The notes below the pieces were generated by a model. The model searched no databases. It was not told where the DNA came from and saw only the letters and a program-made list of their open reading frames with translations. Position numbers and translations under genes: made by a program. A DNA stretch of 64,000 nt from Gammaproteobacteria bacterium (GTDB taxonomy: Bacteria > Pseudomonadota > Gammaproteobacteria > Steroidobacterales > Steroidobacteraceae), in contig JANYJY010000030.1 of assembly GCA_025358295.1 (NCBI GenBank), positions 62,001-126,000 on the forward strand. The letters run 5' to 3'. This document shows positions 46,209-55,263 of the stretch, one piece after another; within the stretch, counting starts at the first letter, position 1; each line of letters starts with the position of its first letter.

Positions 46209-46224
46209 TGCAAGAGGCGTACCA
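46209..46224 (-). promoter_or_regulatory. sigma-54 (-24/-12) promoter of the porin gene
   Basis: On the minus strand the sequence reads TGGTACG-CCTC-TTGCA: GG and GC separated by exactly 10 bases, a perfect TTGCA -12 element and one mismatch in the -24 element (consensus TGGCACR-N4-TTGCW). Predicted transcription start is near 46198, giving a leader of about 95 bases before the porin ATG. Confidence 0.75.
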
Positions 46225-46458
46225 ATGGTGCAACCACCGCGCAATAGAGCTTCTACCCGCCGTTTTCGGCGCGTTTGCTGCCACTGGCTAAGCGCCTGAA
46301 AACTCCGTCAAAGCAGCCAATGCCCCAGCGCGCGCCCGGCGCACGGATGCGCGCTCCTCGACATTCCGCAAAGTGTGGTTTTGACGCAAATCGCTTGCAC
46401 CGCGCGACTGGGCTGGTTGCCCATCACTGTCACGCCTTAGGATCAAATTTGTCGCACT

Positions 46459-46478
46459 CTGTGTTGAATTAGATACAG
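46459..46478. promoter_or_regulatory. putative enhancer site (inverted repeat CTGT-N12-ACAG)
   Basis: CTGTGTT-GAATTA-GATACAG. The arms match those of the site upstream of xoxF (55367-55386) in CTGTGT and GA-ACAG positions with identical spacing. It lies about 190 bases before the frmA -24 element and about 235 from that of the porin, so it could serve both divergent promoters. Confidence 0.5.
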
Positions 46479-46560
46479 GCCTAGCGACGTGCCCAACGTC
46501 CGTCCCGCTCTGGTCCTCGCAGAATTGAGGATTGGCGTTGCTTCATTTTTGAAGCACAAA

Positions 46561-46580
46561 CTGTGGCGGATCAGAAACAC
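46561..46580. promoter_or_regulatory. weaker putative enhancer site
   Basis: CTGTGGC-GGATCA-GAAACAC, the same geometry with one mismatch in the outer right arm (ACAC for ACAG). About 85 bases before the frmA -24 element. Possible second half of a tandem activator site; by itself weak evidence. Confidence 0.3.
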
Positions 46581-46663
46581 ACGGCCGTGCGAGTGCCCGC
46601 ATAGATTGTGTCCCGGGCCGCAAGTAATTGATCGATCAGCATTATGTGCGCCGGGAGTTCATC

Positions 46664-46679
46664 TGGCACGCTTGCTGCT
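46664..46679 (+). promoter_or_regulatory. sigma-54 (-24/-12) promoter of frmA-gfa
   Basis: TGGCACG-CTTG-CTGCT: full -24 element and -12 GC with the exact 10-base GG-to-GC spacing, one mismatch (C for T) in TTGCW. Predicted start near 46691, about 55 bases before the frmA ATG at 46747. It lies inside the upstream frame extension of frmA, which supports the downstream start. Confidence 0.82.
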
Positions 46680-52920: not shown

Positions 52921-53041
52921 TCTCCTCGAATGAGCGTTCGCCTGCAGCCTGACATACGTTTGGACTTGCTCAACCATTGAAGGTTGCACAAGCGATATCT
53001 TCATTTCAACCGGCCGAATCGGGTGCGCCCTGCCAGGCGCA

Positions 53042-53075
53042 CCAAAGAAAAGCCCGGTGACTTGCGTCACCGGGC
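53042..53075 (-). terminator. intrinsic terminator/attenuator between xoxF and xoxJ
   Basis: GCCCGGTGAC (53052-53061) and GTCACCGGGC (53066-53075), a perfect 10-pair stem with loop TTGC, followed on the minus strand by TTTTCTTT. It lies 37 bases after the xoxF stop. It should give much more xoxF mRNA than xoxJ-xoxG mRNA. Confidence 0.88.
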
Positions 53076-53111
53076 GAATTTCCTAATACGAACCGTGAAT
53101 CAACCGAGAGG

Positions 53112-54995
53112 TCAATCGCCCAACCGGAACGTATACAGGGTGCCGCCCTGCGGAATTGACGCGAGATTCGCCGCCTTGGTCATTGCGGTGGCGCCGATCG
53201 CGCCGAATTTGTCGTTCAGATCGAGGCCCGCTGTCACCGGCAATCCGATCCATCCGCCGATGCCAGACCACACCGACACATACTGCTTGCCCTTCACAGA
53301 ATAGGTGATCGGGTTGCCGATGATGCCGGAGCCCAGCTTCTTCGACCACAGGATCTTGCCGCTATCGCGGTCCACAGCGCGGAAGTCGCCGCCCAAGCTG
53401 CCGTAAAAGGCCAAGCCGCCGCCGGTGACCAGGGCGCCACCCCAATTCGGGAACGAATCAGGAATTTCCCACTCGGTCTTGCCGGTTACGACGTTGAACT
53501 TCTTGAACTTGCCGGTGACGCCAGGTTTCTCGGGATACATGAACACATTGGCGAACACGTAAACCGTACCCTGCGTGGTGTGCGAACGCTGTTGCGGCTC
53601 GAGTTCCATGCACCAGTTGTTGGTCGGTACATAGAAATTCGTCGGATCGTTCGGATCCACCGCGACCGGCTGCTGGTCCTTGCCACCCATTGCGGAAGGG
53701 CAGACCTGAGTATTCTCACCCACCTTGAGCGGAGAATGTTCCGGCACCTTGACGGGCCGGCCAGTCTTCATGTCCACCTTTTCCGCCCAGTTGGTCGTGA
53801 CGTACTTGTTGGCGCGCAACAGCGTGCCGTCCGTACGGTCGAACACATAGGCGAAGCCGTTGCGGTCGAAGTGCACCAAGGTCTTGCGCGCCTTGCCATC
53901 GACATTCATATCGACCAACACGACCTCATTGATGCCGTCATAGTCCCACTGATCGAACGGAGTCATCTGATAGACCCACTCCGCCGCACCCGTGTCGACA
54001 TTGCGGGCAAAAATGCTCATGGACCATTTGTTGTCGAACTTACCGCTGTTGCAATTGGCTTGCGTGATAGGTTCGGCGCAACGGAACTGCGGCGACCACA
54101 GACCGGGGTTGCCGGTGCCGTAGTAAACCAGGTGCAGCGCGGGATCGTAGGCATACCAGCCCCACGCCGCTCCGCCGCCTCGCTTCCACTCATCGCCGAC
54201 ATAGGTATTGATACCCAGATCCTTGCCCGCAGTGCCGTACTCCGGATGCTTCTTGTTGGTGTCCTTGGTCAAGCACACGTCGGCATCGGTGCCGGTGGAA
54301 TGACACTCCCACACCTTCTTGCCATCGGCCAAGTTGTAGGCGGTCATGCGGCCGCGAGCCGCAAATTCATCGCCGCCAAAACCAATGATGACCTTGTCGT
54401 TCGCAATGATCGGTGCCGGTGTGATGGTCTCGCCTTTGTCCGGGTGAGCGTGCTTGACGACCCAAATTTCTTTGCCTGTCATGGCATCGAGGGCGATCAC
54501 ATAGCCGTCCAAGGTGCCGAACACCAGTTTCCCGTCCGCATACGACATTCCGCGGTTCACGGTATCGCAGCAGGCGCGCGGCACAGCCGATTCATCGCGG
54601 CCGCTGGTTTTAGTGTAGTGCCACACTTGGATCGGATGATCCGGATCACTGAGATCGAGCGCTTGCAGAATGTTCGGCCAGCCGCTTTCGATGAACATCA
54701 TCGGTTTGCCGCCGACATTTTGAATCACCAAAGGCTGTCCTTCATGACCGCGCAAGGTGCCGCTGGACTGCGCCCAAATCATGCTCAGTCCCTTGACGTT
54801 TCCAGCATTGATATCTTTCAGCGAGCTGTAGCGGGTTTGATTCAAATTACCCGCCGGTGCACCCCACTGATTGGGGTCGCCGAAGCGTTGGAATTGTTCG
54901 GAATCGGAAGCGGCCATCGCGGCACCACAGGTCGTAACTAGGGCTGCGACGGCATAAAACATCTTGACCTGACGTTTTGACGTAAGCCATTTCAT
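53112..54995 (-). CDS. xoxF: lanthanide-dependent PQQ methanol dehydrogenase, XoxF type
   Basis: Periplasmic quinoprotein oxidising methanol (and often formaldehyde) with PQQ and a lanthanide, passing electrons to cytochrome c. 627 residues; signal peptide at about 1-29 (YAVAALVTTCGAAMAA). Eight-bladed propeller motifs recur. Key residues: vicinal disulfide Cys142-Cys143 (RACCDTVNRG) over PQQ, Glu210 (GGDEFAARG), Asn296 (TGNP), catalytic Asp351 and Asp353 in DQWDYDGIN. Asp at the second position is the lanthanide ligand that separates XoxF from calcium-type MxaF, which has Ala. Four extra cysteines (231, 241, 306, 315) and a longer loop after NPGLWSP are unusual. The ATG is preceded by a GGAG-like site and a leader of about 240 bases from a sigma-54 promoter. 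Confidence 0.95.
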   Translation of the reverse strand: MKWLTSKRQVKMFYAVAALVTTCGAAMAASDSEQFQRFGDPNQWGAPAGNLNQTRYSSLKDINAGNVKGLSMIWAQSSGTLRGHEGQPLVIQNVGGKPMMFIESGWPNILQALDLSDPDHPIQVWHYTKTSGRDESAVPRACCDTVNRGMSYADGKLVFGTLDGYVIALDAMTGKEIWVVKHAHPDKGETITPAPIIANDKVIIGFGGDEFAARGRMTAYNLADGKKVWECHSTGTDADVCLTKDTNKKHPEYGTAGKDLGINTYVGDEWKRGGGAAWGWYAYDPALHLVYYGTGNPGLWSPQFRCAEPITQANCNSGKFDNKWSMSIFARNVDTGAAEWVYQMTPFDQWDYDGINEVVLVDMNVDGKARKTLVHFDRNGFAYVFDRTDGTLLRANKYVTTNWAEKVDMKTGRPVKVPEHSPLKVGENTQVCPSAMGGKDQQPVAVDPNDPTNFYVPTNNWCMELEPQQRSHTTQGTVYVFANVFMYPEKPGVTGKFKKFNVVTGKTEWEIPDSFPNWGGALVTGGGLAFYGSLGGDFRAVDRDSGKILWSKKLGSGIIGNPITYSVKGKQYVSVWSGIGGWIGLPVTAGLDLNDKFGAIGATAMTKAANLASIPQGGTLYTFRLGD

Positions 54996-55247
54996 CTCAA
55001 TTCTCCTACTGCGTGGGGTCTGAGCTGATCGCCGCTGCTTGCGCAGGCGGCATGCACACAGTCCTTAATCCTGGGTGCCGTGCGGAATTGCGTATCTTTA
55101 TTACTCGTTACTGCCAAAACTCCCTCCTTCGCGATGCTTACCAATTATTTATAGTTGTCTGGCCGCATATCTTCGGCCGCCAGTCTGATCCCAATGAGAT
55201 GGTAAGTCAGCGATAGGCACCACCGCCTTGGGCCGCCTCCTTAGAAT

Positions 55248-55263
55248 AGCAATGCCTATGCCA
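55248..55263 (-). promoter_or_regulatory. sigma-54 (-24/-12) promoter of xoxF
   Basis: On the minus strand: TGGCATA-GGCA-TTGCT. GG and GC are 10 bases apart, the -12 element TTGCT is perfect and the -24 element has one deviation (T for C). Predicted start near 55236, leader of about 240 bases to the xoxF ATG at 54995. Confidence 0.78.

Follow-up and report, generated by a model that had tools for sequence, protein, structure and literature searches.

Which regulator switches on xoxF, the gene of the lanthanide-type methanol dehydrogenase, and which genes are switched on with it? This question is raised by a 64,000-nucleotide stretch of DNA (the window; positions 62,001 to 126,000 of contig JANYJY010000030.1, assembly GCA_025358295.1) from a gammaproteobacterium of the Steroidobacteraceae, in which xoxF, the formaldehyde-oxidation genes frmA-gfa and a porin gene lie around the gene of a sigma-54 enhancer-binding activator. 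An earlier interpretation made from the DNA letters (the sequence-only reading) had proposed that these genes form a single sigma-54 regulon. This proposal was supported by the conservation of three promoters, by an xoxF site that tracks the activator and by similar dyads upstream of all three promoters. With a probability of roughly 0.87, we read the locus as a regulon in which sigma-54 governs lanthanide-dependent methanol oxidation and a putative one-carbon (C1)-sensing activator would act at the three promoters.

Predicted sigma-54 promoters and their conservation

Sigma-54 promoters have the consensus TGGCACG-N4-TTGCW, with 10 bases between its GG and GC dinucleotides. The three -24/-12 sites claimed for the locus were found verbatim, all with the 10-base GG-GC spacing: TGGTACG-N4-TTGCA before the porin gene (46209..46224, minus strand), TGGCACG-N4-CTGCT before frmA-gfa (46664..46679, plus strand) and TGGCATA-N4-TTGCT before the genes xoxF-xoxJ-xoxG-activator (55248..55263, minus strand). 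Each site points to its gene, as had been stated, and the 16-base sites stop 67, 106 and 252 nucleotides before the ATG codons of frmA (46747), the porin gene (46102) and xoxF (54995), respectively. The TIGR02818 match of FrmA begins at residue 88 of the long open reading frame, and ATG 46747 was taken as the start. With a sigma-54 matrix set by hand from the consensus, the frmA, porin and xoxF sites scored 17.0, 16.9 and 15.2, respectively, which makes them the top three of approximately 128,000 window positions; the fourth scored 13.2. Random 64-kb windows generated by a first-order model contained a mean of 0.53 sites scoring at least 15.1 and a maximum of two (150 trials). The genome also encodes RpoN (Sigma54_DBD; E value, 1.5e-65). 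Among five pyrroloquinoline quinone–dehydrogenase genes examined in the genome, only xoxF had a site facing the gene; one other had a match of 12.4 on the opposite strand.

Conservation in related genomes had been named as a check, and all three promoters proved to be kept. The xoxF site was present in 13 of 13 loci at an identity of at least 79%, the window included. Sites scoring at least 14 were found in 8 of 8 upstream regions of the porin gene and in 7 of 11 of frmA, and five further loci of the same genus (L101–L105) had a site at both frmA (5/5) and the porin gene (5/5). As controls, none of 10 assessable gfa upstream regions had a site of at least 9.5, and one of 32 activator upstream regions had a site at 14. 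In L192, L194, L196 and L201, a porin gene with a sigma-54 site lies directly upstream of xoxF on the same strand. The 16 bases of the xoxF site also recur unchanged at G000:C39:30781-30796 (minus strand; L134), before a frame for which Pfam gave no match. A riboswitch in the xoxF leader was considered and rejected: positions 46000-55800 gave no Rfam match at the gathering score, and the leader differs in length among relatives.

The activator and its predicted binding sites

A full sigma-54 activator with an AcoR-type sensor had been claimed to lie between the promoters. The AcoR/DhaR-like protein encoded at 48585..50573 (minus strand; Sigma54_activat, HTH_8) indeed contains the GAFTGA motif, an AAA+ domain with lid and a Fis-type helix-turn-helix. 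As for the sensor, the N-terminus resembles the GAF-PAS region of DhaR (4lrx; E value, 3e-6), but a GAF domain was not called in the window protein. Its PAS match was weak and below the Pfam cut-off, and GAF was clear in the homologue of L085 (E value, 1.4e-11). Pfam called neither a receiver domain nor a metal-binding domain in the window activator. The NCBIfam DhaR model (NF008485) reached 286.2 bits against a cut-off of 551, in the central and C-terminal part, and by this cut-off the protein is not DhaR proper. The N-terminus is 79–100% identical in 11 genomes of the genus, including its own, and in the genus the gene follows xoxG in the same orientation. Paralogous activators of the genus (47–48% identical; L106, L107, L109 and L110) have a strong sigma-54 site on the opposite strand, which faces away from them and precedes other genes.

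Predicted activator-binding dyads (upstream activating sequences, UASs) were found upstream of all three promoters. The xoxF dyad (55366..55387), of the ACTGTSTC-N6-GASACAGT type, was the best window match of a matrix built from relatives only (27.3; next, 12.9). Another UAS matrix was iterated on the very sequences to which it was then applied, which makes its shuffle fractions optimistic. The proximal frmA dyad (46562..46579) reads TGTGGCGGATCAGAAACA, and a further dyad (46458..46479), TCTGTGTTGAATTAGATACAGG, is flanked by the porin and frmA promoters, which diverge from each other. The degenerate core TGTNNY-N6-RNNACA occurred within 300 nucleotides at 11 of 11 frmA, 9 of 11 porin and 9 of 13 xoxF promoters, compared with 40 of 869 background tiles. 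Measured to the -24 element, the core stands 81–83 nucleotides upstream in all 11 frmA promoters, 101–104 nucleotides upstream in 8 of 13 xoxF promoters (73 in a ninth) and 100–235 nucleotides upstream in the nine porin promoters. The strict form of the dyad was found at six places in the genome, two of them at this locus, against two in the control. Among promoters associated with other activator clades, the core was present in only 3 of 22 (L194, L035 and L196).

Sites resembling those of integration host factor (IHF) stand between dyad and promoter at xoxF (55313..55325, plus strand) and frmA (46621..46633, minus strand), each with one mismatch to WATCAANNNNTTR, a consensus that was likewise set by hand. 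Such matches were present in 10 of 13 xoxF promoters (0.96 expected), nine of them 60–62 nucleotides upstream, and in 8 of 11 frmA promoters (0.44 expected), 40–42 nucleotides upstream. For the IHF gene himA, no match above the cut-off was obtained in this assembly, rated 97.5% complete, or in G013, G014, G017 and G021, the same-genus genomes with activators closest to that of the window; himA was found in 32 of the 40 genomes searched, this one being among the 40. The pheT gene, which usually precedes himA, was likewise not found in this genome, and the absence of himA is therefore probably an assembly gap.

Co-occurrence of site and activator among XoxF genes

XoxF-type genes were collected from named genomes, the order and the class, giving 123 rows, 114 after removal of near-copies and 107 with more than 300 upstream bases to inspect. 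Where an AcoR/DhaR-like activator gene lay no more than 11 kb away, 23 of 28 XoxF genes had an upstream site of at least 14; without such a neighbour, 9 of 79 did (Fisher p = 1e-11, with related genes treated as independent). The reverse-strand control gave such a site in 1 of 107.

In the XoxF tree, the site was found in 23 of 26 members of a mainly gammaproteobacterial XoxF1 clade (L033 and L196 being counted by their porin sites), in all eight genes of a second-type clade from the family of the window (support of the fork, only 84) and in both Methylobacillus genes. It was found in 1 of 44 rows of two mostly alphaproteobacterial XoxF1 clades and in none of a nine-row clade from the family of the window. 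Within the second-type clade, the closest match of L215 is the 6oc5 XoxF, which we take to be an XoxF5 enzyme. The activator occurs in 56 of 187 genomes of the Methylobacillus gramineus family; 40 activator places were fetched, XoxF was in the stretch at 28, and all 28 had a site of at least 14, located 133–178 nucleotides upstream. An inner control is provided by a 798,598-base Methylophilus contig, taken as the same one for both loci, where L067 (XoxF1-type) has neither activator nor site and L297 has both.

The predicted regulon thus extends beyond this genome and into several clades of XoxF. The activators of the XoxF1 loci formed two separate clades, those of the second-type loci a third and those of Methylobacillus a fourth, in a tree with long-branch warnings. 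Because the activators split in this way, different paralogues seem to have been recruited. We consider it likely that sigma-54 enhancer-binding proteins that sense C1 compounds switch the XoxFs of at least three lineages (mainly gammaproteobacterial XoxF1, XoxF5-like of the family of the window and the Methylobacillus family). If this is true, xox genes would have another general mode of control besides the two-component lanthanide switches, and it would have been gained more than once, each time with a different paralogue of the AcoR/DhaR-like type. The supply of methanol, besides that of lanthanides, would then be coupled to xoxF, formaldehyde oxidation and outer-membrane permeability.

Proposed mechanism and alternative explanations

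Promoter sequences, their conservation, the co-occurrence of the activator, the dyads and rpoN were obtained from the analysis; binding, looping, inducer and autoregulation are what we infer. A C1 compound, methanol or formaldehyde as judged from the target genes, would be sensed by the GAF-PAS-like N-terminal region of the cytoplasmic activator. The activator would then assemble on the dyads 80–235 nucleotides upstream of the three promoters, and DNA looping would bring it to the sigma-54 polymerase, with an IHF-like bend as an aid at xoxF and frmA. Hydrolysis of ATP by the activator would open the promoters and co-induce the porin together with methanol oxidation in the periplasm (xoxFJG) and formaldehyde removal in the cytoplasm (frmA-gfa). 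Since the activator gene stands downstream of xoxG in the same orientation, the activator probably amplifies its own expression by positive feedback.

Several results weigh against such a regulon or its generality. A genome scan had been suggested as a check; there, the strict pattern matched at 22 places against 24 in the reversed control, without enrichment. The motif alone therefore proves little, and placement, orientation and conservation carry the case. The genome has 19 other strict sites, and ten proteins encoded behind ten of these were scanned. In favour, five were flagellar (FliK, FliD, FlgA, FliL and, with a weak match, a rod protein), flagellar genes being a usual sigma-54 target; on the other side, five were not, namely a cyclopropane synthase-like protein, a MatE transporter, a LysR regulator and two proteins that matched nothing. 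The missing enrichment would also be expected if the three -24/-12 matches had arisen by chance and the true promoters were of the sigma-70 type. This explanation is very improbable, as the sites are conserved over several XoxF clades, which led us to reject a chance origin, and no site was present in 70 of the 79 loci without activator. Moreover, sigma-70-like matches in 46000-55900 were no more frequent than in shuffled sequences (3 versus a mean of 4.3).

The dyad core was absent from 4 of 13 xoxF and 2 of 11 porin promoters, and none of nine porin promoters had an IHF-like site. Only the degenerate core detected the frmA and porin dyads, which were missed by the matrix built from xoxF dyads. 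As for co-occurrence, related genes count as independent in the Fisher test; kinship-corrected pairs on the tree (n = 7; 70 of 107 rows) gave 2.8 in favour and 0 contrary (p = 0.25), which is the right direction but with too few pairs for significance. Five loci bear an activator and lack a site at xoxF (L033, L196, L209, L210 and L236). In L033 and L196 the site precedes a porin gene that is the immediate upstream neighbour of xoxF in the same orientation, and the activator-like gene lies approximately 5 kb upstream in L209 and L210 and 9 kb downstream in L236. Conversely, nine loci have a site and no counted activator (L025, L026, L029, L191, L032, L035, L037, L038 and L057). The stretches of L025, L026 and L191 stop short of the usual position of the activator, and in L029 the fetched DNA ends within an activator-like stretch 10.6 kb downstream, which leaves five others (L032, L035, L037, L038 and L057). 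In addition, 12 of the 40 activator stretches of the Methylobacillus family have no XoxF, and this activator type is therefore not specific for xoxF there.

Loci with a site and no counted activator would be accounted for if the sigma-54 promoters were real and their main regulator were a system that responds to lanthanides or an enhancer-binding protein encoded far away. L032, L035, L037 and L038 combine a site at xoxF and a downstream flank of at least 6 kb with no nearby activator, and activator-like matches number four in the genome of L037 and nine in that of L040. We nevertheless regard a distant regulator as unlikely in view of the coincidence of site and adjacent activator in 23 of 28 and 28 of 28 loci, of the single place in the window's own genome that matches the activator N-terminus at an E value of 1e-30, and of the similar dyads at all three promoters. 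A different concern touches the inducer only and is compatible with the regulon: the control by sigma-54 may be real and the signal another alcohol or aldehyde, or a lanthanide. Passages of published work describe BmoR, an alcohol-regulated sigma-54 activator, as highly sensitive to C4–C6 alcohols (PMC6366067) and lanthanides as governing XoxF expression elsewhere (PMC11845868). Set against this, frmA-gfa, which encode enzymes of glutathione-bound formaldehyde, belong to the same predicted regulon, and no metal-binding domain was called in the activator. Another signal is a serious possibility, if not the one that we favour, and the sigma-54 regulon with its local activator remains our preferred reading of the locus.

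Genes of the locus

The xoxF gene (53112..54995, minus strand) matched TIGR03075, and its best PDB match was 7o6z (E value, 1.6e-260), which we take to be an XoxF1 enzyme. Its product carries WDYDG, with the extra Asp of the lanthanide site that is a mark of lanthanide enzymes. By its sequence, it is a Xox-type methanol dehydrogenase with xoxG and xoxJ adjacent, and its lanthanide dependence is predicted. The xoxJ gene (51277..52920, minus strand; TIGR03871 above cut-off) is fused to ankyrin repeats, which occupy the C-terminal part of the XoxJ-type periplasmic protein. Many other XoxF loci also have xoxJ matches of approximately 1.5–1.6 kb, and the fusion may therefore be widespread among them. 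A xoxG-like cytochrome c gene follows (50722..51246, minus strand; Cytochrome_CBB3), with TIGR03872 matched only far below its cut-off. Formaldehyde oxidation is represented by frmA, encoding S-(hydroxymethyl)glutathione dehydrogenase (46747..47856, plus strand; TIGR02818, 716.6 bits versus a cut-off of 543.95), and gfa, encoding S-(hydroxymethyl)glutathione synthase (47943..48515, plus strand; TIGR02820).

The porin gene (44852..46102, minus strand) had no Pfam match itself; its 43%-identical homologue in L030 was assigned to Porin_4 (E value, 5.7e-19). Close behind it are genes for a quinoprotein-associated SoxYZ-like carrier (43924..44829, minus strand; TIGR04557 above cut-off), whose listed open reading frame starts 22 bp behind the porin gene, and a quinoprotein relay zinc metallohydrolase 2 (43011..43979, minus strand; TIGR04559 above cut-off). 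The porin promoter probably serves these two genes as well, as their proximity suggests. The stretch behind the porin gene (41743-44829, minus strand) comprises the SoxYZ-like carrier, the SoxH-related metallohydrolase and a flavocytochrome-c sulfide dehydrogenase-like gene. No SoxYZ gene was seen next to the porin gene in six loci of the genus (L024, L102, L103, L104, L105 and L117) with approximately 1 kb or more beyond it.

A TonB-dependent receptor gene (55790-58282, plus strand) is divergent from xoxF; L026 and L027 also have the receptor gene, with no sigma-54 site before it. By its position alone, it is a candidate for lanthanide uptake. Among the ten window proteins scanned, none was recognised as belonging to the lanthanide two-component systems MxbDM/MxcQE, MxaY/MxaB or PedR2/S2.

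Comparison with known systems

In passages of a review, the switching of xoxF is described as needing study and is expected to be species-specific (PMC11845868). A local sigma-54 activator would be a simple and testable answer for many methylotrophs, the Methylobacillus family included. It predicts that xoxF expression is set by methanol or formaldehyde together with RpoN, beyond lanthanides alone, and such activators are candidates for biosensors of methanol or formaldehyde.

BmoR (PMC8899819) and MmoR (PMC5874634) are known cases in which a one-component sigma-54 activator controls the oxidation of alcohols or C1 compounds, as far as the excerpts of these papers describe it. BmoR and the promoter P_BMO of Thauera butanivorans resemble the control predicted here in joining alcohol-oxidation genes with a one-component sigma-54 activator, a UAS and IHF-assisted looping, and BmoR is without the phosphorylation residue (PMC8899819). 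P_BMO differs in serving butane monooxygenase from a UAS 193 bp upstream (PMC8899819); the predicted targets here are xoxF, the genes of glutathione-linked formaldehyde oxidation and the porin gene. Similarly, the soluble methane monooxygenase operon of Methylocella has a sigma-54 promoter and an activator, MmoR, for C1 oxidation (PMC5874634), with methane monooxygenase as the target and not methanol dehydrogenase. The sensor region of DhaR is like that of the window activator, and DhaR itself regulates a dihydroxyacetone kinase operon.

For xox clusters, a figure legend of the review names a GAF-modulated sigma-54-specific regulator, which is a similar type of gene, given there by name only; the excerpts of the review mention no promoter, enhancer or regulon for it (PMC11845868). 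The systems MxbDM/MxcQE, MxaY/MxaB and PedR2/S2 also control XoxF- or PedH-type dehydrogenases, but the review excerpts describe them as lanthanide-tied two-component systems (PMC11845868). Among the literature matches listed, the portions available described neither a sigma-54 promoter for xoxF nor a regulon of xoxF, frmA-gfa and porin. The predicted sigma-54 promoter of xoxF and the predicted regulon that joins xoxF, frmA-gfa and the porin gene would therefore extend the known one-component sigma-54 control of C1 and alcohol oxidation.

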